Assembly (NCBI GenBank): GCA_003151595.1
Contig: PLXW01000046.1
Location: forward strand, 1-64,000
Length of the DNA stretch: 64,000 nt
Direction: 5' to 3'
Source: Myxococcales bacterium
GTDB taxonomy: Bacteria; Myxococcota; Polyangia; Polyangiales; Polyangiaceae
Shown here: positions 22,904 through 57,295 of the stretch, in pieces
Numbering within the stretch: position 1 is the first letter of the stretch
Layout: every line of letters begins with the position of its first letter
Notes under the pieces: generated by a model
Told to the model about the DNA's origin: nothing
What the model saw: only the letters and a program-made list of their open reading frames with translations
Database searches by the model: none
Position numbers and translations under genes: made by a program

Positions 22904-23341
22904 ATGAACCTGAGTGCGCGCAGAACGATCCTTCTCGTCAACGACAATCCCAAAGAGCGTGAGACGATCAATCGCCACCTGACGGGAGAAGGGTTCGTCG
23001 TCGAGCAAGCGACTGACTATCAGTCGGCCGTGAAGTTCCTCGACGACCGTGTCCCGAGCGTCGTGTGCCTCGATCTGACTTTGCCGCGCGAGTCGGGCTA
23101 TGACTTGTGTGAGTACATCCGGAAGCAGCGGCGCCTTCAGTGGGTGCCCATTCTCGTGATGAGCGAGCGCAACTCGCCCGAGGAGATGGCGCACGCCGAA
23201 GAGGTCGGCGCGAACGCTTACCTCAAGAAGCCGTTCACGCCGGAGCGCTTGATTCGATATCTGGGCGCGCTGCTCGACGGACCGCAGGCGAGCCGCCCTA
23301 GCGTGCGTCGTTTGCGGCGAAGCGACCCGCCGCCGAGCTGA
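22904..23341 (+). CDS. Single-domain response regulator (EpsW-like), 145 aa
   Basis: A stand-alone receiver domain. The phosphoacceptor is D57 in VCLDLTLP, the switch Ser is S87 (VMSERN), and the invariant Lys is K109 before P110 in LKKPF. Only one acidic residue (D14) stands in the first acidic pocket instead of two. There is no output domain, so it acts by protein interaction. In the M. xanthus eps locus a single-domain regulator, EpsW, sits near the initiating transferase, which matches this position. The cognate kinase is not in the window. The gene converges on the GT26 gene with a gap of 4 bases. Confidence 0.88.
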   Translation: MNLSARRTILLVNDNPKERETINRHLTGEGFVVEQATDYQSAVKFLDDRVPSVVCLDLTLPRESGYDLCEYIRKQRRLQWVPILVMSERNSPEEMAHAEEVGANAYLKKPFTPERLIRYLGALLDGPQASRPSVRRLRRSDPPPS

Positions 23342-24113: not shown

Positions 24114-24115
24114 GC

Positions 24116-37408: not shown

Positions 37409-37495
37409 GGATAGCGTGCGCCGGTGGCGACGCAACTCGTAGTCGGCGCGATCGTTCGCCGGGCGCCTCGCGTGTTACCTTCAGCCTACATCCAC

Positions 37496-39865: not shown

Positions 39866-40771
39866 ATGTCGATCGTACGAACGGCCCTGCTCGTCGTCGC
39901 CGCGCTGGGCCTGTCGGCCCTCGTCGCGGAGAGCGTGAACGCCGTACGAATCATGCGAGAGACGGCCGCGGAGCTCCGTCCGCCGCGCGTTCACGTGACC
40001 CCAGAAGAGGAGGCCGAGGCCGGCCGTGCGCTGCTGGGTAAAATCGACACGATCTTCCGTGCGAGCGACGGCACCACGCTACGCGGTTGGTACGCGCCGT
40101 CGAGGACGGGAGCAGCAGTCGTACTGACGCACGGGCTCGGCGCGAACCGCGTGGCGGTGCTCCCCGAGGCCGAGGAGCTCGCGGCGCGTGGCTACGGCGT
40201 GCTGCTGTTCGACTCGCGCGCGCACGGCGACAGCGACGGCGATCACTGCACGTGGGGCGATCACGAGCGGCGCGATCTCACCGCGGCGCTCGATTGGATC
40301 ACGGCGCGCCCCGAGGTGGACCGCGATCGCGTCGGCGTGCTCGGCTTTTCGATCGGCGGGATCACTGCCGCGCTCCTCGCGCCGACCGACGCGCGCGAGC
40401 ACGCGCTGGTCCTCGAAGCGACGGGGACCGCGCTCGGCGAGCAGATCCGCAACGAGAGCAAATGGGGAGCGGCGTCGCGCGAGCCGGAGCTCTGGCAGCT
40501 TCGACGCGACGGGATCGACGTCGATGCGATCGATCCGGTCCACGCGCTCGCCGTCGCAGCCCCACGGCCGGTCCTTTTCGTCGCCGGGCAAAACGATCCT
40601 TTCGTACCGGAGTCGACCACGAACACGGTCTTCGCGGCAGCGCCCGAGCCGAAGCAGCTCTACGTCGTCCCCGGCGCGACTCACGGTCACTACACGAGCG
40701 CCGTGGGCCCGGCGTACGCGAAGCGCGTCGCCGATTTCTTCGACGACGCGCTGCGAGCGAAGACGCGCTAG
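39866..40771 (+). CDS. Alpha/beta hydrolase, membrane-anchored, 301 aa
   Basis: A membrane segment at residues about 5-27 is followed by a periplasmic or cytoplasmic hydrolase domain of the S9/prolyl-oligopeptidase-like type. The catalytic triad is intact: S162 in GFSIGG, D244 in GQNDPF and H273 in ATHGHY. The oxyanion region is THGLG. The substrate is unknown. The stop codon overlaps that of the megasynthase gene, sharing CTAG at 40768-40771, and the gene is divergent from the hydrolase pair. Confidence 0.85.
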   Translation: MSIVRTALLVVAALGLSALVAESVNAVRIMRETAAELRPPRVHVTPEEEAEAGRALLGKIDTIFRASDGTTLRGWYAPSRTGAAVVLTHGLGANRVAVLPEAEELAARGYGVLLFDSRAHGDSDGDHCTWGDHERRDLTAALDWITARPEVDRDRVGVLGFSIGGITAALLAPTDAREHALVLEATGTALGEQIRNESKWGAASREPELWQLRRDGIDVDAIDPVHALAVAAPRPVLFVAGQNDPFVPESTTNTVFAAAPEPKQLYVVPGATHGHYTSAVGPAYAKRVADFFDDALRAKTR

Positions 40772-43700
40772 CGGAAGAAACCGCGCTTCACCTTGTCGAG
40801 CATGCGTTGCGCGATCGACCGCGACGCATCTTCGGGAGGAGGCGTCACCGCCCCCTTCGCTCGAGCGACAGGCGCCTGCGCGGGGAGCTGCAGCGCAAGC
40901 TGCCCCAGCGTGTCGATGACGAACGACCGCGGGCCGAGCCGCTTGCCGGTGCGCTTCTCTATCGCGGCGATCGCGCGGAGCACGAGGAGGGAGTGACCAC
41001 CGAGGTTGAAGAAGTTGTCGTGCGCGCTCACCTGCGGAACGCCGAGCACTTCGCTCCACACCTCGGCGACGAGCTTCTCGGCTTCGGTGGAGGGGGGGAC
41101 GTACTCGTTGGCCGCAGCGGCGACGCCGAACGGCGACGGGAGCGCCTTGCGATCGATCTTGCCGTTGGGCGTCTTCGGCAGCGCGTCGACCTCGATGAAG
41201 TGCTGCGGCACCATGTACTCGGGGAGCAGCCCGCGGAGGTGCTTCCGAAGCTCGGTCTGCGTGAGTGACTCGCCAGGGAGCGGCACGTAGTAGGCGACGA
41301 GACGCGCGTCGCCCGCGGTCTCTTCGCGCACGGCCACGCAGGCCTCGCGGAGGCCGCCGCGTTCGAGCAAGCGCGCTTCGATCTCGCCGAGCTCGATGCG
41401 ATGGCCGCGTACCTTCACCTGGCCGTCGTCGCGGCCGAAGAACTCGAGGTCGCCCGTCGCCGTCCAGCGCGCGTGATCGCCCGTGCGGTACATGCGCGCG
41501 TTGGGCTTGTGCGCGAACGGATCGCGGACGAAGCGCTCGGCGGTGAGCTCGGGTCGACCGAGGTATCCGAGCGCGACGCCGTCGCCGCCGATGTACAGCT
41601 CGCCGCGCACGCCGATGGGGACCGGCTCGAGGTTCGCGCCGAGCACGTGGCACTGCGTGTTGCCTATCGGCTTTCCGATCGGCACGCGCTCGAGCGCCCC
41701 TTCGATGCGGAAGCACGTCGACCAGACCGTGGTCTCGGTCGGGCCGTACATGTTCCAGACCTCGCGCGCGCGTGTGTGGAGCGCCGCCGCGAGATCGAGC
41801 GGGAGCGCTTCGCCGCCGCAGAGCGCCTTCAGCTTCGGATCGCCGTTCCATCCCGCGTCGATGAGCACCCGCCAGGTCGAAGGCGTCGCCTGGAGCATCG
41901 TGACGCCGTTCGCGCGCATCGCTTCGAGGAGCGACGCGCCGTCGATAGTCGTCTCGCGGCTGGCGATGACGACGCGCGCGCCGACCGTCAGAGGCAGGTA
42001 GAGCTCGAGGACGGCGATGTCGAACGACAACGTCGTGACCGCGAGCACCACGTCCGAAGCCGTGATCCCGGGGCGCTCGGCCATCGTCGTGAGGAAGTTC
42101 ACGACCGCGCGATGCGGGAGCACGACCCCCTTCGGTCTCCCGGTGGAGCCCGAGGTGTAGATCACGTACGCCGGATCCTCGGGGGTCGCCGCCCCGTCGG
42201 CGCCGAACGGCGGCGCATCTTCGTCCGGCGCGTCGATGAGGAGCGTGGGCGCTGTGGAGTGCGGGAAGGTCTCGGAGACGTGCTTCGTCGTGACGAGCAC
42301 GGTGAGCTCGGCGTCTTCGCACATGAACGCGAGGCGATCCGACGGGAACGCGGGATCGAGCGGGACGTATGCGCCGCCCGCCTTGAGCACGCCGAAGATC
42401 CCGACGAGCATCTCGATCGATCGCTCGACCGCCAGCCCCGCGCGCGCCCCGCGGCGAATGCCTTTGGCTCGCAGCCTCCGCGCCAGCACGTCGGCGCGCG
42501 CGTCGAGCTCCCGGTACGTGATGCGCTGGTCTTCGAACACGGCAGCGACGGCGTCGGGCGTGCGGCGCGCTTGCGCCTCGAAGAGATCGTGCGCTCGCGC
42601 GGCGCGTAGGAACGGCATCTCGGTCGCGTTCCACTGCGCGATGAGCTTGGTCTCGGCCTCGGGCACGATCGGAATCGTGGCGATGCTGCGATCGTCGTCG
42701 TCGGCCACGCTGGCCAGGAGCGCCTTCATCTGACGCTGCACGCGCGCGATCGTCGCCGGCTCGAACAGGTCGCGGTTGTACGTGAAGCCCCCCTCGACGC
42801 CGTCGGCGCGGACCGTGACCCACAGCGTGAGATCGGTGTGCGCGGCGTCCGGCATGGCGTGGACTTGCGTGAACGGAAGATCGCCGATGCGGTTGTCGCG
42901 CTGCCCGGCGTCCTGGAACGAGAAGAGCGCCTGGAAGATCGGCGTGCGGCTCAGATCGCGCGCGACGTCGAGGTCCTTCACGAGCGACTCGAACGGCATG
43001 TCGGGGTTGGCGAACGCTTCGAGGCACGCCGTACGAACGCGCCCGAGGAGCTCCCTGAACGTCGCCTCGACGCCCGTCTCCGCGTCGGCGCTGGCGTCGA
43101 GACGGAGCACCAGCGTGTTCACGAAGTAGCCGAGGAGATCTTCGGTCTCGGGCTGCGCGCGCCCTCGCACGGGCGTACCGATGAGAAGATCGCGCTGGTT
43201 CGTGTGGCGGTACAGGAGCGTCACGAACGCCGTGAGAAACAGCATGTACAGCGTCGCGCCCTCGCGCTTCGCGACCTCGGTGAGCGCGTCGACGTCGGCG
43301 CGCGCGAGGGTGAGCGGCTCGAATCCTCCGGCCCCGCTCATCGCCGCCGGGCGGGGGTGGTCGGTCGGGAGCTCCAGCGGAGGGAGCGAGCCGCCGAGCT
43401 TCTTCATCCAGTACTTCGATTGCTTCTCGAGCTCTTCGCCTTCGAGCCACGCGTGGTGCCACTCGGCGAAGTCGACGTACTGGATCGTCGGAGTCGGCAG
43501 CGAAGGCTTCGCACCGCGCGAGAACGCGGCGTACGCGACGTCGAGCTCGTGCAGGAAGGCATCGAACGACCAGCCGTCCCAGATCGCGTGGTGCGGCATG
43601 AAGAAGAGGACGTGCTCCCCTTCGTCGATCTTGTAGAGGCGAACGCGGAAGAGCGGCGCGCGCGTGATGTCGAGCGACGTGTTCGATTCGTCGCGGATGC

Positions 43701-46700
43701 GCACGTTGAGGGCGCGCTCGCGATCGACCGCAGGGAGCGTGGAGAGATCGACCACGTCGATCTTCACGTCGAGCGTCGGGAGAACGATCTGAACGGCGTG
43801 ATCGTCTTCCCACGCCAGCGCCGTACGCATCGCCTCGTGGCGCTGTGCGATGAACGTGAAGCTCGCTTCGAGCGCCTTCACGTCGAGCGGGCCGCTCAAG
43901 CGATACGCCTCGGGGAGGTTGTAGGTGGTCTTCCCCGGCTCGAGCTGCTCGAGGAACCAGAGCCGCTGCTGCATGAGCGACTGCCGCGCGTGACCGGTGC
44001 CGCTCCGCTTGGGAATCCGTACGGCCGGGGCGTCGTGTGCCTTGCCGTCGACGAGCGCGGCGAGCTTGGCCACGGTCGACGCTTCGAACACGCGACGGAG
44101 CGAGAGGACGACGCCGTGATCGCGCGCCAGACGCGAGAGCATCTGCGCCGCGAGGAGCGAGTGCCCACCGAGCGCGAAGAAGTCGTCGTTGGCGCCGACC
44201 CGACCGACGCCGAGCACGTCTTGCCAGAGCGTCGCCAGGAGCCGCTCGGTCCCCGTCTTCGGCTCGACGTAGCCGCCCCCCTTCTCGTCCTTCGCGCCCA
44301 GCGCCGGGAGCGCCTTGCGATCGACCTTGCCGTTCGGCGTGAGCGGCATCGCCTCGAGCGTCACGAACGATTGCGGGATCATGTACTCGGGGAGCGACGC
44401 GCGAAGATGGGCGCGTAGCTCGTCGTCGGCGACCGCCGCGCCCTGCGCGACGACGTAGGCGATGAGACGTGCATCGCCCGCGCGCACTTCGCGCACGATG
44501 GCCACGGCCTGCGCCACGCCGCCGTGCTTCGCGAGAGCCGCTTCGATCTCGCCGAGCTCGATGCGGTAGCCGCGCAGCTTCACCTGGTGATCGTTGCGCC
44601 CGAAGTACTCGAGGTTGCCGTCGGCCAGCATCCGCGCGACGTCGCCGGTCTTGTAGAGGCGCGCGCCGGGGGTGAACGGATCGGACACGAAGCGTTCGCG
44701 CGTGAGCTCGGGGCGACCGAGATATCCGCGCGCCAGGCCGTCGCCGCCGATGTACAGCTCGCCGAGGACGCCGATGGGGAGCGGGCGCATTTGCGCGTCG
44801 AGTACGTGCACCTGCGTGTTCACCAGCGGCCGACCGATCAGGATCCGCGTCGGAGTCTCGGGCACGCGCCAGGCGGTCGACCAAACCGTGGTCTCGGTGG
44901 GCCCGTACATGTTCCACACGGAGTCCGAGCGCTCCGTGAGCTCGCGCGCGAGATCGATCGGAAGGGCTTCGCCTCCGCAAAGAACCTTGATGCGATCGCG
45001 TGGCGACCACCCCGCCGCCAACAAGAGTCGCCACGTCGACGGCGTGGCCTGCATCACGGTGACGCCGCGCGTGTGGATCAGCGCCAGCAACGCCTCGCCC
45101 GAACCCGCTTCGTCGCGCGACGCGATGACGACCGATCCGCCGACCGTCAGCGGCAAATAGAGCTCGAGCACGGCGATGTCGAACGACAGCGTCGTCACCG
45201 CCAGCATCACGTCCCGCGCGGTGAACCCCGGCTCGTCAGCCACACTCGACAGGAAGTTCACCACCGCGCGATGCGGGAGCTCGACCCCCTTCGGCGTGCC
45301 CGTCGAGCCCGAGGTGTAGATCACGTAGGCGCGACTCATCGGAGTGGCGAGCGGCGGCGGACGCGCGTCGTCCTGCGACATCACGCCGTCGACCAGGACG
45401 ACCTTCGCCCCGGGCGCCGAGAGCTTCCCCACGAGCGAGCGCTGCGTTACGAGAACACCGACCTTCGAGTCGGTGAGCATGAACGCGATGCGATCACGCG
45501 GGAACGACGGGTCGATCGGGACGTACGCGCCGCCCGCCTTGAGTATGCCGAGGAGGCCGACGACCATGTCGATCGATCGCTCGACTCCGAGCCCGACCAG
45601 CGTGTCGTGACCGACCCCCTCCGCGCGAAGCTGATGCGCGAGCCTGTTCGCGCGCCGATCGAGGTCGGCGTACGTGATCGTGGCGTCGCCGAAGCGGACG
45701 GCGACGGCGTTCGGGGTCCTGTCGACCTGGTGCTCGATCAGCGTGTGCGCGCACGCCTCGCGCGCGTAGTCGTGCGTCGTGTCGTTCCAGTGCGCGATGA
45801 GGCGCGTCTCGGCCTCGGGCACGATCGGGATCGTGCCCACGCTGCGATCCGGGTCCTCGGCCACGCCGGCGAGGAGCATCTTCATCTGGCGCTGCACGCG
45901 CTGGATCGTCGCCGGCTCGAAGAGGTCGGTATTGTACGAGAAGCCGCCGACCATTCCGTCGCCGCGCTCCATGACCCACAGCGTGAGATCGGTCTGCGCA
46001 GCGTCGGGCATCACGTGGAGCTGCGTGAACGGGACGTCGCCGATGTGATCTTCGCGCGCCTTGGCGTCCTGGAACGAGAAGAACGCTTGAAAAATCGGCG
46101 TGCGGCTGAGATCGCGCGCGACGTCGAGCTCCTTCACGAGCGACTCGAACGGCATGTCGGGGTGCGCGAACGCTTCGATGCACGCGGCGCGAACGCGCGC
46201 GAGGAGCTCCCGGAACGTCGGCTCGACGCTCGTCTCGTGGTCGGCGCTGACGTCGAGGCGCAGGACCAGCGTGTTCACGAAGAAGCCGAGGAGGTCCTCG
46301 GTCTCCGGCTGCGCACGTCCGCGCACGGGCGTGCCGACGAGCAGATCGCGCTGGTTCGTGTAGCGATGGAGCAGCGTGACGAACGCGGTCAGCAGCACCA
46401 TGTACAGCGTCGCGCCGTCGCGCTTGCCGACCGCCGTGAGCGCGTCGATCTCGGCGCGCGAGAGGCGAAACGGCTCGAAGCCGCCGGCGCCGGTCATGGT
46501 GGCAGGGCGCGGGTGATCGGTCGGCAACTCGAGCGGCGGCAGCGCGCCCGACAGCTTCTTCTTCCAGTACGTCGACTGCTTCTCGAGCTCCTCGCCGTCG
46601 AGCCAGTCGTGGTGCCACTCGGCGAAGTCCGAGTACTGGATGGGGGGAGCGGGGAGGTTCGGCTTCGCGCCGCGCGCGAACGCCGCGTACGACGCATCGA

Positions 46701-49700
46701 GCTCGCGCAGGAATGCATCGAACGACCAGCCGTCCCAGATCGCGTGGTGCGGCATGAAGAAGAGGACGTGATCGGCGTCGTCCATCTTGTAGAGCTTCAC
46801 GCGGAAGAGCGGCGCGCGCCTGAGATCGAACGGCGTATTGGTCTCGCGGCGGATGCGATCCATCAGGATGCGCTCGCGATCGGCGGGGACGATCGACGTC
46901 AGGTCGACGACGTGGATCTTCACGTCCAGCGCCGGGAGCACGACCTGAACGGCGCGATCCTCTTCCCACGCCAACGCCGTGCGCATGGCTTCGTGACGCT
47001 CGGCGATCAGGGTGAAGCTCGCGTCGAGCGCCTTCACGTCGAGCGCGCCGCGCAAGCGATACGCCGCTGGCAAGTTGTACGTCGTCGTCCCGGGCTCGAT
47101 CTGATCCAGGAGCCACAGGCGCTGCTGCATCAACGACTGACGCGCGCGACCGACGCCGGTGCGCTTCGGGATCTTCACAGCCGTGGCGTCGTGCTTCTCG
47201 CCGTCGATCAGCGCGGCGAGCTTCGCCACGGTCGACGCTTCGAACACGCGGCGCAGCGAGAGGACGACGCCGTGATCGCGCGCGAGGCGCGAGAGCATCT
47301 GCGCGGCGAGGAGGGAGTGACCGCCGAGGAGAAAGAAGTCGTCGTTGGCGCCGACGCGACCGACGCCGAGCACGTCTTGCCACAGTTTCGCCAGGCGCCG
47401 CTCGGTCTCCGACTTCGGTTCGACGTAGCCCCCGTGATCGTCTTTGGTGACGAGCGCCGGGAGCGCCTTGCGATCGACCTTGCCGTTCGGCGTGAGCGGG
47501 AGCGCGGCTAGCGTGACGAACGCTTGCGGCACCATGTACTCGGGGAGCGACGCGCGAAGATGCACGCGCAGCTCGTCGTCCGGAACGGCGGCACCGCGCG
47601 CGACGACATACGCGATCAGTCGCGCGTCGCCCGCGCGCACTTCGCGCACGATCGCCACGGCCTGCGCCACACCGCCATGCTTCGCCAGCGCCGCTTCGAT
47701 CTCGCCGAGCTCGATGCGGTACCCACGCAGCTTCACCTGGTGATCGTTGCGTCCGAAGTACTCGAGGTTGCCGTCGGCCAGCACCCGCGCGACGTCGCCC
47801 GTCTTGTAGAGGCGCGCGCCGCTCACGAATGGATCGGACACGAAGCGTTCGCGCGTGAGCTCCGGGCGATCGAGGTAGCCGCGCGCCAGACCGTCGCCAC
47901 CGATGAACAGCTCGCCCATCACGCCGATGGGGAGCGGTCGCATCCGCGCGTCGAGGACGTGCACCTGTGTATTCGACAGCGGCTTGCCGATCAGGATGCG
48001 CGTGGGGTTCTGCGGCACGCGCCACGACGTCGACCACACCGTGGTCTCGGTCGGGCCGTACATGTTCCACACCGATTCGGAGCGCGCGGTCAGCTCGCGC
48101 GCGAGATCGAGGGGCAGCGCTTCACCGCCGCACAGCACCTTGAGCGGCTCGCTCGCCGACCAACCCGCTGCCAGTAACAGGCGCCACGTCGACGGCGTCG
48201 CCTGCATCGTGGTCACGCCGCGCGCACGGATCGTCGATAGGAGCGCGTCGCCCGACCCGGCCTGATCGCGCGAGGCCACGACGACCGATCCGCCGACCGT
48301 CAGCGGCAGATAGAGCTCGAGCACCGCGATGTCGAACGAGAGCGTCGTCACCGCGAGCATCACGTCCGACGCGCCGAGCCCCGGCTCGCGCGCCACGCTC
48401 GACAAGAAGTTCACCACCGCGCGATGCGGCAGCTCGACCCCCTTCGGCACGCCTGTGGAGCCGGACGTGTAGATGACGTACGCGCGGCTGTCGGGCGTCG
48501 CCAGCGGCGACGGGCGCGAGTCGTCTTGCGACGTGACGTCGTCGATCAAGATCGCCTTCGCGCGCGGCGTCGCGAGCTGACTCACGAGCGAACGCTGCGT
48601 GACCAGCACCTCGAGCTTCGAGTCTTCGAGCATGAACGCGACGCGATCGCGCGGGAACGACGGATCGATCGGGACGTACGCGCCGCCGGCTTTCAAGATC
48701 CCGAAGAGCCCGACGACCATGTCGATCGATCGCTCGACCCCCAGGCCGACCAGCGTGTCGTGCCCGACCCCTTCGGCGCGAAGGCGATGCGCCAGGCGAT
48801 TGGCGCGTCGATCGAGCTCGGCGTACGTGATGGCGTCGTCGCCGCAGCGCACGGCGACGGCGTTCGGCGTGCGATCGATCTGCCGCTCGATGAGCGTGTG
48901 CGCGCAGGCGTCGCGCGCGTACTCGTGCGCCGTCTCGTTCACGCGCGCGAGCGCGGCGCGATCCGTGTCGTCGAGGATCGGGAGCGCGCCGATCGGCGTC
49001 TCGGGGCGCGCGACGATCGCCTTCAGGATCGACTCGTAGCTCCGCATCCAACGGCGGAGCGTCTCGGCGTCGAGCAGATCCGTGTTGAGCTGACACAAGA
49101 GGACGAGCCCCTCGGGGCTCTCGGTCGCGCTCACGAAGAGATCGAACGTCTCGTAGTGGCGGGGGTTGACGGTGAACTCGATCTCGAGCCCGTCCCACGC
49201 CAGCGCCGACGCGTGCAGCGGCTGGTCGACGTTGAAGAGGACGGAGACGAGCGGCGGGCGGCTGGGATCGCGCGCGATGGGGAGCTTCTGAAGCAAGCTT
49301 CCGAGCGTGAGCGCCTGGTGATCGAAGGCGTCGAGCACGAGCTTGCGCTGCGACTTGAGCAGATCGGAGAACGTCGCCGCGGAGTCGACCCGCGCGCGGA
49401 TCGGCACCGTGTTGACGGCGTGACCCACCAGCTCTCCATGCTCACCGCTCGATTGCCCTGCGGCCGGGATCCCCACGACGAAATCGTCCTGGCCCGACAG
49501 GCGATGAAGGAGCGCCTCGAACGCGGCCAGCAACGTCACGAAGAGGCTGCTACCGTGCTTGGCGCCCGTCTTCTTCACGGCGTCGATGAGCGGCGCCGGG
49601 ATCGTGATGTCCTCGCGCGCCGATGCGTACGAGCGCATGGGGCGACGCGCGCGATCGAACGGGAGCTCGAGGACCGGCAGAGCGCCCGACATCTGCGCCA

Positions 49701-50358
49701 GCCAGAACGCCTCGTCGGCGGCGTGCTCGGGCGAGGTCGCGTAGGCGATCTGTTCGCGCGCGTAGGCGCTGAAGGGCTCGGCCGGAGGGAGCGCGGCGCG
49801 AACGCCTTTGTGACGCGCGCCGTACAGCGCGCCGAGATCGCGCACGAGGATCGCGGTCGACCATCCGTCGCAGACGATGTGGTGCGCCGTCATCACGAGC
49901 ACGTGCTCGCGCTCGGCCATCTTCACCAGGCGGACGCGGAAGAGCGGCCCGCGCTCGAGCACGAACGGCTCTTCCACCTCGGCGTCGGTCATCACGCGCA
50001 GCGCGCAATCGCGTTCGACCTCGGGTCGATCCGAGAGATCGACCAGCGGCACGTCGAGCGTTTGATCGGCCGCGACGCAGAGGGTCGTGCCGTCGCCGCT
50101 GAACGTCGTGCGGAGCGACTCGTGCCTCTTCACGAGATCGCCGAGCGCGAGACGCAACGCCTCGACGTCGAGCGCGCCGCGAAGGCGAAGCGAGTTCGAC
50201 TCGTTGAACGCGAGCGACGCGTCCTCGCCCAGGCGACACGCCGTCCACACCTCGCGCTGCGGTTGGGTCGACGGCGCGACCCCCGTGAGCTCGGGGCTCG
50301 CGAACGGATCGAAATCGACCGCCGCGAGGGTCGGATCTGCGCTCGGGTTCCTGCTCAT
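40768..50358 (-). CDS. Nonribosomal peptide synthetase, C-A-PCP x3, no thioesterase, 3196 aa
   Basis: Three complete modules. C1 (HHIVCDGWS, about residue 158), A1 (YTSGSTG about 629), PCP1 (LGGHSLL about 1011), C2 (HHAIWDGWS about 1206), A2 (about 1679), PCP2 (about 2062), C3 (about 2256), A3 (about 2732), PCP3 (about 3119). No epimerase, methyltransferase or thioesterase is present; the protein ends about 75 residues after PCP3. Specificity residues of all three A domains read DILQLGMVWK, close to codes I remember for Gly. The C domains are of the LCL type. The ATG overlaps the stop of the upstream A-PKS-AMT gene in ATGA. A1 and A2 are nearly identical, and A3 diverges mainly in its first half. 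Confidence 0.95.
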   Translation of the reverse strand: MSRNPSADPTLAAVDFDPFASPELTGVAPSTQPQREVWTACRLGEDASLAFNESNSLRLRGALDVEALRLALGDLVKRHESLRTTFSGDGTTLCVAADQTLDVPLVDLSDRPEVERDCALRVMTDAEVEEPFVLERGPLFRVRLVKMAEREHVLVMTAHHIVCDGWSTAILVRDLGALYGARHKGVRAALPPAEPFSAYAREQIAYATSPEHAADEAFWLAQMSGALPVLELPFDRARRPMRSYASAREDITIPAPLIDAVKKTGAKHGSSLFVTLLAAFEALLHRLSGQDDFVVGIPAAGQSSGEHGELVGHAVNTVPIRARVDSAATFSDLLKSQRKLVLDAFDHQALTLGSLLQKLPIARDPSRPPLVSVLFNVDQPLHASALAWDGLEIEFTVNPRHYETFDLFVSATESPEGLVLLCQLNTDLLDAETLRRWMRSYESILKAIVARPETPIGALPILDDTDRAALARVNETAHEYARDACAHTLIERQIDRTPNAVAVRCGDDAITYAELDRRANRLAHRLRAEGVGHDTLVGLGVERSIDMVVGLFGILKAGGAYVPIDPSFPRDRVAFMLEDSKLEVLVTQRSLVSQLATPRAKAILIDDVTSQDDSRPSPLATPDSRAYVIYTSGSTGVPKGVELPHRAVVNFLSSVAREPGLGASDVMLAVTTLSFDIAVLELYLPLTVGGSVVVASRDQAGSGDALLSTIRARGVTTMQATPSTWRLLLAAGWSASEPLKVLCGGEALPLDLARELTARSESVWNMYGPTETTVWSTSWRVPQNPTRILIGKPLSNTQVHVLDARMRPLPIGVMGELFIGGDGLARGYLDRPELTRERFVSDPFVSGARLYKTGDVARVLADGNLEYFGRNDHQVKLRGYRIELGEIEAALAKHGGVAQAVAIVREVRAGDARLIAYVVARGAAVPDDELRVHLRASLPEYMVPQAFVTLAALPLTPNGKVDRKALPALVTKDDHGGYVEPKSETERRLAKLWQDVLGVGRVGANDDFFLLGGHSLLAAQMLSRLARDHGVVLSLRRVFEASTVAKLAALIDGEKHDATAVKIPKRTGVGRARQSLMQQRLWLLDQIEPGTTTYNLPAAYRLRGALDVKALDASFTLIAERHEAMRTALAWEEDRAVQVVLPALDVKIHVVDLTSIVPADRERILMDRIRRETNTPFDLRRAPLFRVKLYKMDDADHVLFFMPHHAIWDGWSFDAFLRELDASYAAFARGAKPNLPAPPIQYSDFAEWHHDWLDGEELEKQSTYWKKKLSGALPPLELPTDHPRPATMTGAGGFEPFRLSRAEIDALTAVGKRDGATLYMVLLTAFVTLLHRYTNQRDLLVGTPVRGRAQPETEDLLGFFVNTLVLRLDVSADHETSVEPTFRELLARVRAACIEAFAHPDMPFESLVKELDVARDLSRTPIFQAFFSFQDAKAREDHIGDVPFTQLHVMPDAAQTDLTLWVMERGDGMVGGFSYNTDLFEPATIQRVQRQMKMLLAGVAEDPDRSVGTIPIVPEAETRLIAHWNDTTHDYAREACAHTLIEHQVDRTPNAVAVRFGDATITYADLDRRANRLAHQLRAEGVGHDTLVGLGVERSIDMVVGLLGILKAGGAYVPIDPSFPRDRIAFMLTDSKVGVLVTQRSLVGKLSAPGAKVVLVDGVMSQDDARPPPLATPMSRAYVIYTSGSTGTPKGVELPHRAVVNFLSSVADEPGFTARDVMLAVTTLSFDIAVLELYLPLTVGGSVVIASRDEAGSGEALLALIHTRGVTVMQATPSTWRLLLAAGWSPRDRIKVLCGGEALPIDLARELTERSDSVWNMYGPTETTVWSTAWRVPETPTRILIGRPLVNTQVHVLDAQMRPLPIGVLGELYIGGDGLARGYLGRPELTRERFVSDPFTPGARLYKTGDVARMLADGNLEYFGRNDHQVKLRGYRIELGEIEAALAKHGGVAQAVAIVREVRAGDARLIAYVVAQGAAVADDELRAHLRASLPEYMIPQSFVTLEAMPLTPNGKVDRKALPALGAKDEKGGGYVEPKTGTERLLATLWQDVLGVGRVGANDDFFALGGHSLLAAQMLSRLARDHGVVLSLRRVFEASTVAKLAALVDGKAHDAPAVRIPKRSGTGHARQSLMQQRLWFLEQLEPGKTTYNLPEAYRLSGPLDVKALEASFTFIAQRHEAMRTALAWEDDHAVQIVLPTLDVKIDVVDLSTLPAVDRERALNVRIRDESNTSLDITRAPLFRVRLYKIDEGEHVLFFMPHHAIWDGWSFDAFLHELDVAYAAFSRGAKPSLPTPTIQYVDFAEWHHAWLEGEELEKQSKYWMKKLGGSLPPLELPTDHPRPAAMSGAGGFEPLTLARADVDALTEVAKREGATLYMLFLTAFVTLLYRHTNQRDLLIGTPVRGRAQPETEDLLGYFVNTLVLRLDASADAETGVEATFRELLGRVRTACLEAFANPDMPFESLVKDLDVARDLSRTPIFQALFSFQDAGQRDNRIGDLPFTQVHAMPDAAHTDLTLWVTVRADGVEGGFTYNRDLFEPATIARVQRQMKALLASVADDDDRSIATIPIVPEAETKLIAQWNATEMPFLRAARAHDLFEAQARRTPDAVAAVFEDQRITYRELDARADVLARRLRAKGIRRGARAGLAVERSIEMLVGIFGVLKAGGAYVPLDPAFPSDRLAFMCEDAELTVLVTTKHVSETFPHSTAPTLLIDAPDEDAPPFGADGAATPEDPAYVIYTSGSTGRPKGVVLPHRAVVNFLTTMAERPGITASDVVLAVTTLSFDIAVLELYLPLTVGARVVIASRETTIDGASLLEAMRANGVTMLQATPSTWRVLIDAGWNGDPKLKALCGGEALPLDLAAALHTRAREVWNMYGPTETTVWSTCFRIEGALERVPIGKPIGNTQCHVLGANLEPVPIGVRGELYIGGDGVALGYLGRPELTAERFVRDPFAHKPNARMYRTGDHARWTATGDLEFFGRDDGQVKVRGHRIELGEIEARLLERGGLREACVAVREETAGDARLVAYYVPLPGESLTQTELRKHLRGLLPEYMVPQHFIEVDALPKTPNGKIDRKALPSPFGVAAAANEYVPPSTEAEKLVAEVWSEVLGVPQVSAHDNFFNLGGHSLLVLRAIAAIEKRTGKRLGPRSFVIDTLGQLALQLPAQAPVARAKGAVTPPPEDASRSIAQRMLDKVKRGFFR

Positions 50359-53300
50359 GAGGGGCGCGTAACCTTCATGAACTTTCCAGGCATCGTGGGG
50401 TTGGGGACGAACCACGCCGGGTTCCCTTCCGGATCGCGTCCGAGGCGCGCGCCGGGCACGGGAGGCTGCGCGGCGTCGAACGTCTCGCTCGCCGCGTGCT
50501 CGCGCGACGGCGCCGCCGGAAGGAAGCCCGCGTCCTGCATCTCGGCCACGGCTTCCTTGAACGCCTTGATGACGAAGTCGACCTCGGCGTCGCCGTGCGA
50601 CGTCGTGAAGAAGCAGGGGAAGCCGTCGTAGATGTGAACGCCGCGATCGCGGAGCATGTAGAAGAAGACGTCGCCGAAGGCGTGCTCCTCTTTCCAGAAC
50701 GGCTTCCACAACGAGCTGAAGTGCTTGATCACGAGCGGCGCGTGCACCTGCTCGAAATGCGCGTTCAGCTCCGCGGCGAGTCGCTCGGCGTTCCCCGTCA
50801 CGCGCTTCTGGAGCGCGGGCCCTTGCTCCTTCAAGTGGAGGAGCACGGCACGCGCGGCGGCGAGCGCCAGCGGGTGACGCACGAACGTTCCGGCGAAGTA
50901 CGTGACGCCCACGGTGGGAACGGAGTCGTCGCCGAACTGCCAGAAGCCGCCGTCGAGCGCGTCCATGTACTCGCGCTTGCCGGCGATGACGCCGATCGGA
51001 TACCCGCCGCCGACGACCTTGCCGTACGACGCGAGGTCGGCCTTCACGTCGAAGAACGCCTGCGCGCCACCGACGCCGGTGCGAAAGCCCGTGATGACCT
51101 CGTCGAAGATGAGGAGCGAGCCGCTTTCGGTGGTGAGCTTGCGGAGGTCGTGCAGGAACTCGCGCGGCTGGAAGTCGGGGCGGCGGCTCTGCACCGGCTC
51201 GACCATGATCGCGGCGAGCTCGCTCGCTTGCTCCTTCAGGATGGCGAGCGTCTCGGGGGTGCCGTAGTCGAGAACGAGCACGTTCTCGGCGGTCGACGGC
51301 ATGATGCCGGGCGCGGCGGGGATGGCGCGGAGCTTCTTCGTCCCGCGCACGATCACCTCGTCGAAGATGCCGTGGTACGAGCCGGTGAAGATGGCGATCT
51401 TCGATCGCCCGGTGACGGTGCGCGCGATCCGCATGCATCCCATGACGGCTTCGGAGCCGGTGTTGCAGAAGCCGGCGCGATCGTTCCCGGTGATCTCGCA
51501 GAAGAGCTTCGCGGTCTCGCCGGCGAGAGGCGGCGTGGGGCCGATCTCGTGGCCGATGCGGAGCTGCTTCTCGACGGCCACGTTCACGAACTCGGGCTGC
51601 CAGCCGAACAGGTTGCAGCCGAAGCCGTTGAGCACGTCGATGTACTCGTTCCCGTCGATGTCCCAGAGCCGCGGCCCCGCCGAGCGCTCGACGACGATCG
51701 GATAGACGAGCTCCTTCACCGCGGGGCGGAAGCCGGTGACGACGCGTGGATCGGCGAGGTACTTGCGGTTGTCTTGCGCGTACGCCTTCGAGCCTTTGGT
51801 GCGCGCGTTGTAGCGGCGCGTGAAGGCTTCGAGGCGCGCCTTCTGTTTCGGCGTGAGCGGGTCGTTCTTGTGCGTGTGGATGCGGGCGATCGCGCCGAAG
51901 GCTTTCTTGACGTCGTATTTGGTGTGGGCTTCGGCGAGGGGGTCGGGGGTCGAGGCGGGGCCGCGCGTGGAGGCGGGGCCGTTCACGTTGGCGTTCCCGT
52001 TCACGTTCGCATTCCCGTTCACTCTCGCGTTCGCGGTCGGGGTCGGGGTCGCGGTCGCGGTCGGCGCGAAGCCGCGTAGCGCAGCAAGTTGCTGCTCCAT
52101 GATCCGCAGCTGCTGATCGATCACGTACTGAAGCGTCCCTGCGGCCGCCGTCGACATCGGCAACGGCGCCGCCCCCATCGCGACCGGCGCGTGCACGGCC
52201 TGCATCGGCTGCGCGACCGGCGCGGCCATCACGGGCGCGGCCTCCGGCGGGAGCTGCGCGTCCACGTGACTCGCGAGGCGCTCCAGCGTCGAAAAATCTT
52301 CGAGCAGCTGCCGGAACGTCAGCTTCACGCCGTATGCCTTCGACACCTTCAGCGCGACCTGCGTGAGGAACAACGAATCGAGCCCCAGCTCGACGAACGA
52401 CGTCGCGTCGTCCCCTTCCCCGATCTCCACGCCCGACGTGTCTTCGAGAAGCTGACGAAGCTCGGCGCCGAGGCGCGCGGTGCGTGAGCCTGACGGCTGC
52501 TGCGGCGATTCCATGGTCTCCTCGGTCGGTGGGCTTGCCAGAGTTGGCTGAAGACGTGCCGCGCTCTCGGGCGCAGCCTGAATCGTCGGACTGAACGCAG
52601 GCGCAGACACGGGCGCGGCCACGCTTGCACGGTCGATCCAGAAGCGTTGTCGCTCAAATGGGTACGTTGGCAACGGCACCCGTCTTGGTGTACCGGCGTG
52701 GAGGCGCTTGGCGTCGAGCGCGACGCCGTTCGTCCACAGCTGCCCCGCGGCCTTGAGCAGCGACGTCCACTCCGCCTCGGGATCGTCGGCGAGCGACGAG
52801 ATCGCGATCTGCGTCGCGCGATCGGTCACCTGTTGCCGCGCGAGCGTGGCCAGCGTCGTGCGCGGGCCGACCTCGAGCAACAGCACGTCCTTCTCCGCCC
52901 AGAGCGTGCGCACGCCGTCGGCGTAACGAACGGTCTCGCGCAAGTGCCGCGCCCAGTACATCGGGTCCTTCGCCTGCGCGGGGGTGATCCACGTGCCGGT
53001 CACGCTGGAGACGAACGGGATGCGCGGCGCCGAGAGCGGCACGGCGCGAATGACCGCAGCGAACGGCTCGACCACCGGGTCCATCATCGGCGAGTGGAAG
53101 GCGTGCGACGTGTGGAGCGCCTTGGCCACGACCCCTTCGGCTTCGAGCCGCCTCGCGAGATCGTCGATCTTCGCCGTGGGGCCGGCCACCACGCATAGCG
53201 TCGGCCCGTTCTCCGACGCGATCGCCAGCTCCGGATCGGTGAGCCGCGCGCGAACTTTCTCCGCCGGCTCGCGGACCGAGAGCATCGACCCCTCGGGGAG

Positions 53301-56300
53301 CGACTGCATCAAGCGACCGCGCGCCGCGACGATCTTCAGCGCGTTTTCGAGCGTGAGCACGCCGGCGACGACCGCGCAGACGAACTCGCCGATGCTGTGA
53401 CCGATCATCGCCGTCGGCCGCACGCCCCAGCTGTCCCAGAGCTTCGCCAGCGCGTACTCGATCGTGAAGAGCGCGGGTTGCGTGAAGCGAGTCTCGCGAA
53501 GCGCGGCGGCGGCGGCGACAGCGTCCCCTTCGGCCGGATGCATCACGCTGCGGAGATCGAGCCCCAGGTGCGGGAGAAGGATCTCGGCGCAGCGGTCGAG
53601 CGCATCGCGAAAGACCGGCTCGTCAGCGTAGAGCGCGCGCCCCATGCCGACGTACTGCGCGCCCTGGCCGGGGAACAAGAACACGACCGACGGCGGCGTG
53701 GTGGGAGCCGCGCGCGTGGCCTGCTTGCCGGCCGCCGCGCGGAGCTGCGTGACCGCGTCGACCGACGACTCGCACGCGAACGCGCGGCGATGACGGAACG
53801 CGCGACGCCCCCGGTGCAAGGTGAACGCGACGTCGGCGAGGCTCTGCGCGCCGTCGTGGCGCTCGAGGTGATCGGCCAGCGCACGCGTCGCCGTGTCGAG
53901 CGCGTTCGCGCTGCGTGCCGAGACGACGAGGAGCTGCCGCGCGCGGGATGGCGAGGACGGCGCGCGCCGCGGAGCTTCCTCCATCACCACGTGCGCGTTC
54001 GTGCCGCCGACGCCGAACGAGCTGACCCCCGCGCGTCGCGGCGCCTCTCCACGCGGCCACGCCGTGAGCGCGTTCACCACGCGGAACGGGCTGGTCGCGA
54101 AATCGATCTTCGGGTTGGGCGCGCGATAGAAGAGCGTCGCCGGGATCGCCTCGTGCGTGAGCGCGAGCGCGGTCTTGATGACGCCGGCGACCCCGGCCGC
54201 GATGACGGCGTGCCCGAAGTTGCTCTTGATCGACCCCAGCACGCAGAACCCCATGTCGCTCGTGCGCGATCGGAAGGCGCGCGTGAGCGCTTCGACCTCG
54301 ATCGGATCGCCGAGCGGCGTCGCCGTGCCGTGCGCTTCGACGTAGCTGATCGTCCGCGGATCGATCCCGGCGTCGGCGTGCGCGCGCGCGATCACCGTCG
54401 CCTGCCCTTCGACGCTCGGCGCCGTGAAGCTCGCCTTCGCGCCGCCGTCGTTGTTGATGGCGGCGCCGCGAATGACCCCCCAGATCGTGTCGCCGTCGCG
54501 CACGGCGTCTTCGAGCCTTCGCAGGACCACGAGCCCCGCGCCGTCGCTGAAGACGGTCCCCTTCGCGTCGGCGTCGAAGGCGCGCGTGCACCCGTCGTCG
54601 GAGAGCATCGCCCCCTCTTGATAGAGGTAGCCGCTCTTCACCGGCACGGTGATAGAGACGCCGCCGGCGAGCGCGAGATCGCAGTCGCCGTTCTGCAAGC
54701 TGCGGACGGCCGACGCGATCGTGACGAGCGACGTCGAGCACGCGGTATGGATGCTGATGGCGGGGCCGGTGAGATCGAGCCGGTGCGCGACGCGCGTAGC
54801 GATGTAGTCCTTCTCGTTGGCGACCATCGACTGGAACGCGCCGAGCGCGTCGACCAGGTCGGGGCGCGTGACGACGTTCTCGCTCCAGTACGAGTCGTTG
54901 TACTTGCCGGCGAACACACCGATCGCGCCGTCGAACGACTCGGGCACGTGCCCCGCGCTCTCGAGCGCGGACCACGCCAGCTCGAGCATGATGCGCTGCT
55001 GCGGGTCCATGATCTCGGCTTCCTTGGGCGTGATGCCGAAGAAGCCGGCGTCGAACTTGTCGACGTCGTCGAGGATGCCGCGCGCCTTCACGTAGTTCGC
55101 GTCGTCGCGGAGCGAGGCGGGGACCGCGGGATCGATCTCGGCGTCCGTGAAGCGCGACGTCGTCTCGCGCCCTTCGCGGAGCACGGTCCACAGCGCGTCG
55201 ATGTCGCGCGCGCCGGGGTAGCGCCCGACCATTCCGACGATGGCGATCGGCTCGTGGCCGCTCTTCGTTTCGCGCGCGGCGAACCGCGCGAGCTTCGCTT
55301 CGAGCGCGGCGCCGGCGTCGGTCGAACGCACGGCGAGCACGAGATCACGGATCGTGGGGTGCTGGAAGAGCTGGAGCACCGGCGCGTCGATCCTGCGCTC
55401 GTTTCGGAGGCGCGCCATCATGCGCACCGCGAGGAGCGACGTGCCGCCAAGATCGAAGAAGTTGTCGGTCGCTCCCACCGGCGTGATGCCGAGCAGATCG
55501 CGCCACAAGGCCGCGAACGCGATCTCGTCTTCTCCCTTAGGAGCCACGAAGTCGTTCGCCAGCTCGGGGCGATCGCTCGACGGCGCCGGGAGCGCGCGCG
55601 TGTCGAGCTTGCCGTTCGTCGTGACCGGGATCGCATCGAGCGTCACGAACGCCGAGGGCACCATGTACTCGGGGAGCGTGACCGCGAGCTCGGCGCGAAC
55701 GCGCGTCGGCGAGAGCTTCGTGCCGTCCTTGGGGACGACGTACGCCACGAGTCGCTTCACGCCCGGCACGTCTTCGCGCGCGATGACCACGGCGCGCTGC
55801 ACGTCGGCGCGCGCCGCCAGCGCCGCTTCGATCTCGCCGAGCTCGATGCGGTAGCCGCTGATCTTCACCTGCGAGTCGGCGCGACCGACGTAGTCGAGCA
55901 GCCCGTCGTCGCGCTCGACGACGAGGTCGCCCGTTTTGTAGAGGCGCGCGCCGGCGTCGAACGGGCTCGGCACGAACCGCTCGCGGGTGAGCTCCGGCTG
56001 GGCGAGGTAGCCGCGCGCCAGGCCGGCGCCGCCGATGTAGAGCTCGCCCACCTCGCCGCGCGTGACGGCGCGCATCTGCGCGTCGAGCAGGTGCGTCTGC
56101 GTCTCGCGAATCGCGCGACCGATGGGCACCGATCGCGCGGCGCCGTCGAGATCGCGCGGGATGCGGTAGCAGCAGGCGAACGTCGTCGTCTCGGTGGGGC
56201 CGTACCCGTTGATGATCGTCGTCCCCGGCAGCGCGTCGAGCGCGCGACGCACGTGCGTGACCGAGAGCGCTTCACCGCCCGTGAGCACTTCGCGCGCGCC

Positions 56301-57074
56301 GGTGAGCGCGGTCGCGTCTTCGTCGATGACGGTGTTGAAGAGCGCCGCGGTGAGCCACATCGTGGTGACGCCGTGCCGCGCGATCACGTCGCGCAGCCCG
56401 CGGGCCGTCGGGACCGCATCGGGGTACACGACGACGCGACCGCCGTTCGCCAGCGCCCCCCAGATCTCGAACGTCGACGCATCGAACGCCAGCGGGGCCG
56501 CGTGAAGGATCGCCACCTCGGGCGAGAGCGTCGCGTACCCCGCGTCGATCACGAGCCGTTCGATCGCGCGATGCACGACCTCGACCCCTTTGGGCTTCCC
56601 GGTCGACCCTGACGTGTACATCACGTACGCGACGTCGTCGGGGCTCACCTTCGCGCGCGGGACCTCGGTCGCCTTGGCGATGCGCGCGGCGTCGACGTCG
56701 ATGAGCACATCGACGCGACCATCCGCCGGCGGCGGCAACCGATCTCGAACGCTCGCCTGCGTGACCAGGAGACGCGCCCCCGCGTCGCGCAGGATGAACG
56801 CGAGCCGCTCACGCGGATACGTCGGTTCCAACGGCACGTAGGCGCATCCCGCTTCCAGAATCGCCAGGAGCGTGACGACCGTCTCGACGGACCGCTCCAC
56901 CGCCATCGCGATGCGATCGCCAGGTCGCGCGCCGAGGCTCACCAGGTGCCCCGCGAGCCGCCCTGCCCGCGCGGCGACCTCGCCATAGGAAAACGAGTCG
57001 CGGCCGTGCGTGACGGCGATCGCGCTCGGCGCTCGGGCAGCCCACGCGGCGAAGGAATCGTGGACGGGCTTCAT
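50355..57074 (-). CDS. Hybrid NRPS-PKS: A-PCP-KS-AT-ACP-aminotransferase, 2239 aa
   Basis: Loading and extension module, no N-terminal C domain. A (YTSGSTG about 151), PCP (LGGTSL about 541), KS (TACSTS with active Cys about 779, HGTATPLGDP and NFGHA following), AT (GHSIGE about 1224, then HAFHS, the malonyl type), ACP (GLDSL about 1563), and a class-III PLP aminotransferase (about 1725-2180, Lys in SYGKVVGGG about 2016). No KR or DH lies between AT and ACP, so the beta-keto group should meet the aminotransferase. The A-domain code reads DAFWLGGTFK, Val-like. The order is that of mycosubtilin-type synthases, but with an amino acid starter. ATG 57074 is used; ATG 57173 is in frame. Confidence 0.92.
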   Translation of the reverse strand: MKPVHDSFAAWAARAPSAIAVTHGRDSFSYGEVAARAGRLAGHLVSLGARPGDRIAMAVERSVETVVTLLAILEAGCAYVPLEPTYPRERLAFILRDAGARLLVTQASVRDRLPPPADGRVDVLIDVDAARIAKATEVPRAKVSPDDVAYVMYTSGSTGKPKGVEVVHRAIERLVIDAGYATLSPEVAILHAAPLAFDASTFEIWGALANGGRVVVYPDAVPTARGLRDVIARHGVTTMWLTAALFNTVIDEDATALTGAREVLTGGEALSVTHVRRALDALPGTTIINGYGPTETTTFACCYRIPRDLDGAARSVPIGRAIRETQTHLLDAQMRAVTRGEVGELYIGGAGLARGYLAQPELTRERFVPSPFDAGARLYKTGDLVVERDDGLLDYVGRADSQVKISGYRIELGEIEAALAARADVQRAVVIAREDVPGVKRLVAYVVPKDGTKLSPTRVRAELAVTLPEYMVPSAFVTLDAIPVTTNGKLDTRALPAPSSDRPELANDFVAPKGEDEIAFAALWRDLLGITPVGATDNFFDLGGTSLLAVRMMARLRNERRIDAPVLQLFQHPTIRDLVLAVRSTDAGAALEAKLARFAARETKSGHEPIAIVGMVGRYPGARDIDALWTVLREGRETTSRFTDAEIDPAVPASLRDDANYVKARGILDDVDKFDAGFFGITPKEAEIMDPQQRIMLELAWSALESAGHVPESFDGAIGVFAGKYNDSYWSENVVTRPDLVDALGAFQSMVANEKDYIATRVAHRLDLTGPAISIHTACSTSLVTIASAVRSLQNGDCDLALAGGVSITVPVKSGYLYQEGAMLSDDGCTRAFDADAKGTVFSDGAGLVVLRRLEDAVRDGDTIWGVIRGAAINNDGGAKASFTAPSVEGQATVIARAHADAGIDPRTISYVEAHGTATPLGDPIEVEALTRAFRSRTSDMGFCVLGSIKSNFGHAVIAAGVAGVIKTALALTHEAIPATLFYRAPNPKIDFATSPFRVVNALTAWPRGEAPRRAGVSSFGVGGTNAHVVMEEAPRRAPSSPSRARQLLVVSARSANALDTATRALADHLERHDGAQSLADVAFTLHRGRRAFRHRRAFACESSVDAVTQLRAAAGKQATRAAPTTPPSVVFLFPGQGAQYVGMGRALYADEPVFRDALDRCAEILLPHLGLDLRSVMHPAEGDAVAAAAALRETRFTQPALFTIEYALAKLWDSWGVRPTAMIGHSIGEFVCAVVAGVLTLENALKIVAARGRLMQSLPEGSMLSVREPAEKVRARLTDPELAIASENGPTLCVVAGPTAKIDDLARRLEAEGVVAKALHTSHAFHSPMMDPVVEPFAAVIRAVPLSAPRIPFVSSVTGTWITPAQAKDPMYWARHLRETVRYADGVRTLWAEKDVLLLEVGPRTTLATLARQQVTDRATQIAISSLADDPEAEWTSLLKAAGQLWTNGVALDAKRLHAGTPRRVPLPTYPFERQRFWIDRASVAAPVSAPAFSPTIQAAPESAARLQPTLASPPTEETMESPQQPSGSRTARLGAELRQLLEDTSGVEIGEGDDATSFVELGLDSLFLTQVALKVSKAYGVKLTFRQLLEDFSTLERLASHVDAQLPPEAAPVMAAPVAQPMQAVHAPVAMGAAPLPMSTAAAGTLQYVIDQQLRIMEQQLAALRGFAPTATATPTPTANARVNGNANVNGNANVNGPASTRGPASTPDPLAEAHTKYDVKKAFGAIARIHTHKNDPLTPKQKARLEAFTRRYNARTKGSKAYAQDNRKYLADPRVVTGFRPAVKELVYPIVVERSAGPRLWDIDGNEYIDVLNGFGCNLFGWQPEFVNVAVEKQLRIGHEIGPTPPLAGETAKLFCEITGNDRAGFCNTGSEAVMGCMRIARTVTGRSKIAIFTGSYHGIFDEVIVRGTKKLRAIPAAPGIMPSTAENVLVLDYGTPETLAILKEQASELAAIMVEPVQSRRPDFQPREFLHDLRKLTTESGSLLIFDEVITGFRTGVGGAQAFFDVKADLASYGKVVGGGYPIGVIAGKREYMDALDGGFWQFGDDSVPTVGVTYFAGTFVRHPLALAAARAVLLHLKEQGPALQKRVTGNAERLAAELNAHFEQVHAPLVIKHFSSLWKPFWKEEHAFGDVFFYMLRDRGVHIYDGFPCFFTTSHGDAEVDFVIKAFKEAVAEMQDAGFLPAAPSREHAASETFDAAQPPVPGARLGRDPEGNPAWFVPNPTMPGKFMKVTRPS

Positions 57075-57143
57075 GCTGTGGACGCACGGTTCATGGAACG
57101 GATGTGGTTCGCGGTGCGCGAGGTTCCTTGCGGCCGCTACGAC

Positions 57144-57155
57144 ACCTTTAAAGGT
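57144..57155. promoter_or_regulatory. Perfect 12-bp AT-rich palindrome upstream of the megasynthase operon
   Basis: ACCTTTAAAGGT is a perfect inverted repeat, unusual in this GC-rich DNA. It lies 70-81 bases upstream of ATG 57074 and 141-152 bases before the divergent GTG 57296. It is a candidate operator or -10 region controlling the synthase genes. Confidence 0.4.
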
Positions 57156-57295
57156 AAACGACTTCGCGAGCATGGTGCGACCGGAATCGGTGCCCTGGTA
57201 GCGCCCGCGCAGCTCGCCCGATCGAGCGGCATCGAGCGGCGAGGAAGAATCCTGGGATCGCCTCCGTAGACTCTCCCCACGGAATCCCCCATCCA

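Follow-up and report, generated by a model that had tools for sequence, protein, structure and literature searches.

Analysis of a 64,000-nucleotide stretch of a Myxococcales bacterium (contig PLXW01000046.1, assembly GCA_003151595.1; hereafter the window) suggests that its two-gene polyketide synthase-nonribosomal peptide synthetase (PKS-NRPS), formed by P0002 (gene 1) and P0001 (gene 2), belongs to an exopolysaccharide (EPS) locus, lacks a thioesterase (TE) of its own and is off-loaded in trans by the alpha/beta-hydrolase pair hydr1/hydr2, most likely onto polysaccharide, a reading to which we give roughly even chances. An initial annotation of the same DNA had presented the synthase as a lone cluster for a small peptide with vicinal amines. 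Whereas the diamino-acyl-glycyl chemistry remains plausible, the lone cluster is not supported, given the large and broad family to which the synthase belongs, its setting in an EPS locus and the presence of an adjoining hydrolase pair in place of a TE. The spread of the core, the EPS locus and the hydrolase pair of TE-less lines had gone unnoticed there.

Gene 1 encodes, in the order first proposed, adenylation (A), peptidyl carrier (PCP), ketosynthase (KS), acyltransferase (AT), acyl carrier (ACP) and aminotransferase (AMT) domains, and gene 2 three condensation (C)-A-PCP modules, an arrangement borne out by Pfam and by active-site motifs. The Pfam families of P0002 are AMP-binding, PP-binding (two stretches), the N- and C-terminal KS families, acyl transferase and class-III aminotransferase; P0001 contains three stretches each of Condensation, AMP-binding and PP-binding. 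TACSTS, EAHGT and KSNFGH are present in the KS, GHSIG and HAFH (the latter, we assume, of malonyl type) in the AT, SYGK with the pyridoxal phosphate lysine in the AMT, and GGTSL, LGLDSL and three times GGHSL in the carriers of the two proteins. Each C domain of P0001 shows one catalytic HHxxxDG motif, and a fourth match to this pattern, at residue 1249, does not lie at an active-site position. The overlapping ATGA between the two genes was likewise recovered, at 50355-50358; from the overlap start at 50358, P0001 comprises 3196 amino acids (aa), whereas a mechanical listing of open reading frames (ORFs) places its start at 51438. For P0002, the Met at 57074 used by the initial annotation is Met35 of the longest ORF, and homologue matches in a genome scan for relatives mostly begin at query residues 20-41, so that both 57173 and 57074 are possible starts.

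No ketoreductase (KR), dehydratase (DH) or TE family was matched by Pfam at E<=0.001 in P0002 or P0001, and a motif search found no GGxGxxG in P0002, in agreement with the KR- and DH-free PKS module described initially. These results, and a gap of about 80 residues separating the end of the AT from the motif of the ACP, led us to reject a KR or DH hidden in that interval. A terminal TE in gene 2 was ruled out by Pfam and by inspection of the C-terminus, as the chain stops after the last carrier.

Re-derivation of the A-domain codes by alignment returned the codes previously read by eye, DAFWLGGTFK once and DILQLGMVWK three times (the last K of each is assumed by the alignment script; NGK motifs were found separately). 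A reference for the starter is offered by MlcM, presumably a malacidin protein. In passages of the two sources, DAFWLGGTFK is the Val code of MlcM (PMC9113097) and DILQLGMIWK, from which the P0001 code differs by one residue, is a Gly code (PMC12283262), supporting the original Val-type and Gly-type assignments. The solved structures nearest to the P0002 AMT are those of the MycA AMT (6kfm and 6kfu, 435-436 bits; next other protein 176 bits), as expected for the mycosubtilin-type enzyme proposed at the outset. The MycA AMT aminates a beta-keto-ACP.

These features suggest a model in which Val would be loaded onto PCP1 and condensed by the KS with malonyl-ACP; since no reductase would act, the AMT would transaminate the beta-ketone, yielding 3,4-diamino-5-methylhexanoyl-ACP, to which the P0001 modules would add three Gly. 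Carrier-bound 3,4-diamino-5-methylhexanoyl-(Gly)3 is our best prediction of the product, based on the Val- and Gly-type codes, the MycA-type AMT and the lack of KR and DH. The Cys enzyme hydr1, with the nucleophile-less hydr2, would then off-load the peptidyl thioester from the last carrier in trans; transfer, with an amine or hydroxyl group of the EPS repeat unit as acceptor, is the likeliest route, and hydrolysis a less likely one. Narrow searches of the open-licence PubMed Central literature found no paper naming the 3,4-diamino free acid and no characterised cluster with this domain order or a known product, a close cluster of that kind having been named by the initial annotation as grounds for abandoning its proposal.

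The connection between release and the hydrolase pair emerges from a comparison of 85 loci (84 fetched and the window), chosen by similarity to P0002. Their synthases are TE-less in 20 loci, TE-bearing in 49 and unreadable at the C-terminus in 16; the TE-bearing relatives end in a standard-looking TE, whereas the window and others stop after the last carrier. Homologues of hydr1/hydr2 flank 14 of the 20 TE-less lines and 0 of the 49 TE-bearing ones (Fisher p=2.5e-10, descent not corrected). In these 14 loci the order is last NRPS gene, hydr2, hydr1 on the same strand, sometimes with an intervening gene; in the window the NRPS and the pair are separated by a hydrolase gene on the opposite strand, and in L012 hydr2 alone is seen before the contig ends. 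L076, with an unreadable C-terminus, carries a divergent pair on the other side. The TE-less loci without flanking hydr genes are L003, L006, L016, L054, L079 and L083; a whole-genome search of all of these except L003, a plasmid record outside its scope, gave a hydr1 match in each, weak in L079. Among genomes with a TE-bearing line, 18 of 19 are without a hydr1 match at 1e-10. On a KS+AMT tree with weak deep support, the TE-less lines are not monophyletic, with L051, L022/L047 and L083 placed apart. Also on this tree, L008, a metagenome-assembled genome (MAG) labelled Bordetella parapertussis, perhaps wrongly, is TE-bearing, hydr-free and nested among TE-less lines.

The nucleophile elbow of hydr1 holds Cys in 14/14 copies, and the corresponding place in hydr2 is Arg or Gly in 15/15. 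In the model of the window hydr1 (pLDDT 83.9), Cys115 lies at the strand-helix turn; an invariant His265 is also present, and the models of both proteins match generic alpha/beta-hydrolases among the best 50 Foldseek hits of each. Some TEs that form amide or lactone bonds carry Cys instead of Ser, and the Cys of hydr1 would therefore fit acyl transfer better than hydrolysis.

The nearest named families of the pair, TIGR03100 and TIGR03101 (listed by NCBIfam as hypothetical equivalogs), are EPS hydrolases 1 and 2 of exosortase A (XrtA) systems. In Burkholderiales, 10 of 60 genomes hold copies above the cut-off (L092-L101), with Cys in hydrolase 1 in 9/9 copies read (that of L092 was not read apart) and Arg in hydrolase 2 in 10/10. 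In 9/10 of these loci hydr2 is immediately preceded, on the same strand, by a free ACP, which in L100 is encoded on the opposite strand. A single contig of a Rhodanobacter MAG carries an NRPS about 20 kb from hydr2-hydr1 and from two XrtA EPS export genes that score over their cut-offs. By gene order, the free ACP of the exosortase-A loci and this contig indicate that the pair, defined by us from the copies read as a tandem with Cys in hydr1 and a lost nucleophile in hydr2, tracks the carrier proteins of EPS loci.

A further feature of TE-less lines is the tail that follows the last carrier, which is net positive in 19/20; its hydrophobic moment exceeds that of shuffles (combined p=2e-5, individually p<0.05 in just 7/20). 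The free ACPs of exosortase loci are without a basic amphipathic tail. We regard a docking element or membrane anchor as a lead for its role.

Judged from its gene content, the window holds a Wzx/Wzy EPS locus like that of Myxococcus xanthus, lying on the hydrolase side of the NRPS. A phosphoglycosyl transferase, Wzx, Wzy, a polysaccharide co-polymerase and an outer-membrane polysaccharide export (OPX) protein, the last by local profile only, occur together in it, and the matches to EpsZ, Wzx_EPS, Wzy_EPS and EpsV all fall below the curated equivalog cut-offs. Of the 85 loci, window included, 47 are flanked by one or more EPS-type genes, as judged from a limited set of markers. A control comparison covered 30 genomes taken from the 80 genome loci and picked by us for spread, with Bac_transf, Poly_export and Polysacc_synt_3 as EPS markers, AMT loci identified by the AMT alone and other NRPS loci taken from the Condensation matches listed. 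Within the limits set by contig breaks and shared descent, 18/33 AMT loci (17/30 genomes) have an EPS marker no more than 50 kb away, as against 2/38 of the other NRPS loci listed (p=3.5e-6); removal of the fragmented genome G004 leaves 18/32 versus 2/24 (p=2e-4). This comparison served as the test of chance as the source of the EPS link. Some contigs of the AMT loci that lack a marker are short, but the three Nostoc matches share one contig of 8.35 Mb, two of them being distant (49-51% identity) AMT matches that may belong to other systems.

The core itself is widespread. Of 7996 proteins scored in a protein search, 7974 matched at E<=1e-50, and the 120 matches listed contain the A, PP-binding, KS, AT and class-III aminotransferase families; a genome scan gave at least 593 relatives, 80 of which were kept, and tblastn found matches in 3561 plasmid records, 46 of which cover >=80% of the protein at a single place. 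We take the relatives to fall, among others, in Bacteroidota, Pseudomonadota, Myxococcota, Cyanobacteria, Planctomycetota, Verrucomicrobiota and Acidobacteriota. With T denoting a carrier, the order A-T-KS-AT-T-AMT is whole in one ORF in 65 of the 85 loci chosen by similarity (split or cut in 13, not resolved in 7), and is thus not due to chance. C-A-T modules follow the AMT protein in relatives, and a single C domain at E<=1e-40 was found in 11/30 genomes among the matches listed. Downstream A domains outside the window begin with DILQ in 34/82 cases, spread over 31/69 loci, codes not beginning with D being left out of this count. In 81 loci, counting the window, the starter code is Pro-type in 45 plus one near variant, Val-type in 19, Thr-type in five and of other kinds in 11, these class names being given by likeness to codes in passages of PMC9113097 and PMC12283262. 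In ten loci (L001, L003, L006, L009, L012, L014, L024, L053, L079 and L084) the last protein ends C-A-T-C-T, its terminal C-T being without a detected A domain, although A domains may have escaped detection in some cases; the last carrier of these lines is perhaps loaded in trans.

A broader proposal is that a widespread, hitherto undescribed class of assembly lines puts vicinal-diamino (or pyrrolidinyl-beta-amino) acyl-glycyl groups on EPS, that in its TE-less branch the hydr pair transfers them from carrier to polysaccharide precursor, and that the same pair serves groups bound to free ACPs in exosortase-A EPS systems. We put this forward tentatively, as its chances fall well short of even. 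If true, nonribosomal peptide chemistry would be a general means of EPS decoration, and amine-rich groups would alter the charge, adhesion and metal binding of the biofilm matrix that bacteria of soil and water produce. The predicted 3,4-diamino acid would add a compound without a match in the name search described above. The exosortase-A hydrolase pair would gain a testable function, carrier off-loading or acyl transfer, its role being only guessed at in a passage of PMC3584217.

Several observations weigh against off-loading onto EPS. The window hydrolases score below the family cut-offs (hydr1 77 of 168 bits for TIGR03100, hydr2 84 of 203 bits for TIGR03101), the marker set used found no phosphopantetheinyl transferase in the window, and one of the 19 genomes with a TE-bearing line does hold a hydr1 match at 1e-10. 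By the limited markers, 38/85 loci, including all six from Corallococcus, show no EPS-type flank gene, and for 15/33 AMT loci the same contig shows no EPS marker at a distance of 50 kb or less. The controls were supplied by 13 of the 30 genomes, and inside this set the contrast is weaker, at 7/16 versus 2/38 (p=0.0016), or 7/15 versus 2/24 (p=0.015) without G004. Moreover, genes that lie together do not prove that the peptide is attached to EPS, and the loci share descent.

The same chemistry could lead to a free small peptide (a secreted metabolite, signal or chelator), with hydr1 acting as a hydrolase and EPS proximity reflecting co-regulation. Vicinal diamines bind metals, and both the standard-looking TE of the TE-bearing relatives and the AMT loci that lack a nearby EPS marker are in keeping with free release; the enrichment of AMT loci near EPS genes over other NRPS loci, the exosortase-A EPS hydrolases as the pair's nearest named families and a Pfam scan of 32 window ORFs that revealed neither an immunity nor a siderophore gene speak against it, and we consider it rather unlikely, though a serious contender. 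We regard as very improbable the view of the initial annotation, in which a lone secondary-metabolite cluster makes a new vicinal-diamine product with no polysaccharide link: it fits the architecture and codes as read and the empty name search for the free acid, whereas the EPS surroundings of the window disfavour a plain secondary-metabolite cluster, the EPS genes lying on the hydrolase side of the NRPS, and a large family of the same order extends across several phyla.

Other alternatives concern single steps of the proposed route. 4-Amino-3-oxo thioesters can cyclise, and a tetramate or gamma-lactam could form from the acyl thioester before the first C domain, or the AMT could act on another group, so that no vicinal diamine would arise; the papers found in the searches above hold no biochemistry of an amino-acid-primed AMT module. 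Given the position of the AMT after the ACP, its closest resemblance to that of MycA, the motifs kept by the downstream modules and the C-A-T modules that follow in relatives, this outcome appears improbable. EPS processing or quality control, rather than action on a carrier protein, is a further possibility for hydr1/hydr2, as suggested for the TIGR03100 protein Bcam1334 of Burkholderia cenocepacia in a passage of PMC3584217. The presence of the pair with TE-less and not with TE-bearing lines, the free ACP adjoining it in exosortase-A loci and the Cys at the nucleophile place of hydr1 all count against this possibility, and we judge the processing role to be unlikely.

The features of the synthase, the hydrolases and the surrounding EPS locus are collected in the table. 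Among the remaining genes, homologues of the Cupin_8 (JmjC-like) and TIGR04325-type proteins lie beside the NRPS in 21 and 18 of the 85 loci, respectively, window included, and the trio may tailor the same product. A 1712-aa ORF (13336-18474) combines a PIG-L deacetylase, a ricin-type lectin and FG-GAP repeats, and a penicillin-amidase family protein is encoded at 7465-9606.

Table. Positions of the synthase, hydrolase and EPS-locus features in the window.
Feature	Position	Strand	Remarks
Gene 1 (P0002)	50355..57173	minus	A-PCP-KS-AT-ACP-AMT; start 57173 or 57074
Starter adenylation domain	55590..57053	minus	code DAFWLGGTFK, Val-type
Ketosynthase	53970..55247	minus	active-site motifs intact
Acyltransferase	52626..53699	minus	HAFH motif
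Class-III aminotransferase (AMT), MycA-AMT type	50517..51815	minus	Lys in SYGK
Gene 2 (P0001)	40768..50358	minus	three C-A-PCP modules, no TE
Module 1 A domain	47467..48891	minus	DILQLGMVWK, Gly-type
Module 2 A domain	44314..45738	minus	DILQLGMVWK, Gly-type
Module 3 A domain	41146..42579	minus	DILQLGMVWK, Gly-type
C-terminal tail of gene 2, after last carrier	40771..40836	minus	basic amphipathic; similar tails in TE-less relatives
abh3, third alpha/beta-hydrolase	39866..40771	plus	homologues beside six Corallococcus NRPS loci
hydr2, alpha/beta-hydrolase fold	38997..39794	minus	Arg at nucleophile place (AMRLG); TIGR03101-like, below cut-off
hydr1, alpha/beta-hydrolase	38125..39000	minus	Cys at nucleophile place (GFCSS); TIGR03100-like, below cut-off; 4-base overlap with hydr2
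Hexapeptide-repeat acyltransferase-like protein	37424..38113	plus	candidate EPS acyl transfer enzyme
Wzx flippase	35873..37435	minus	Wzx_EPS 382 bits, cut-off 800
OPX (Wza) protein	35287..35928	minus	local profile only
Glycosyltransferase group 1	34154..35290	minus	start approximate; ORF overlaps OPX gene
Wzy polymerase	32669..34000	plus	Wzy_EPS 304 bits, cut-off 670
EpsX-like protein	31337..32653	plus	weak, 46 bits
EpsV-like polysaccharide co-polymerase	29635..31152	minus	289 bits, cut-off 800
Glycosyltransferase family 2 + hexapeptide repeat	26287..28581	minus	start approximate
Glycoside hydrolase family 44 (GH44)	24116-26290		inside EPS locus
WecG/TagA/CpsF glycosyltransferase	23346..24116	minus	start approximate
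Single-domain response regulator	22904..23341	plus	beside EpsZ-like gene; EpsW-like by position
EpsZ-like phosphoglycosyl transferase	21485..22879	plus	579 bits, cut-off 800
Cupin_8 / TIGR04325-type / Cupin_8 trio	10344..13135	plus	TIGR04325-type by local profile

Compared with known systems, the EPS locus of the window is closest in outline to the eps locus of M. xanthus, described together with EpsZ-EpsW in passages of PMC7484181 and PMC12802240, with which it shares genes resembling EpsZ, EpsV, Wzx and Wzy as well as the response regulator adjacent to EpsZ. The window proteins score below the curated cut-offs, and the terms 'polyketide' and 'nonribosomal' are absent from the text of PMC7484181. 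The hydrolase pair of exosortase A systems resembles that of the window in its tandem arrangement, in its Cys and lost nucleophile and in adjoining a carrier; there the carrier is a free ACP, whereas the carrier nearest to the window pair is the last PCP of the NRPS. Six hydrolase-related terms searched for in Haft et al. 2006 (PMC1569441) did not occur in it.

Two further systems frame the synthase. The mycosubtilin/iturin synthase MycA shares with P0002 a KS-AT-ACP that lacks a KR and precedes a class-III AMT (436 bits). Synthases of this type are primed by a fatty-acyl ligase and an ACP and end in a TE; the line encoded by P0002 and P0001 differs in its A-PCP amino-acid starter with a Val-type code, its lack of a terminal TE and its EPS setting. 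Stieleriacines are N-acylated tyrosines that are not known to involve a megasynthase of the A-PCP-KS-AT-ACP-AMT order. Their N-acyl amino acid synthases, according to a passage of PMC7293339, lie by PEP-CTERM/exosortase loci, where a gene for a small amino-acid metabolite stands beside EPS genes, as in the window, and beside sorting genes.

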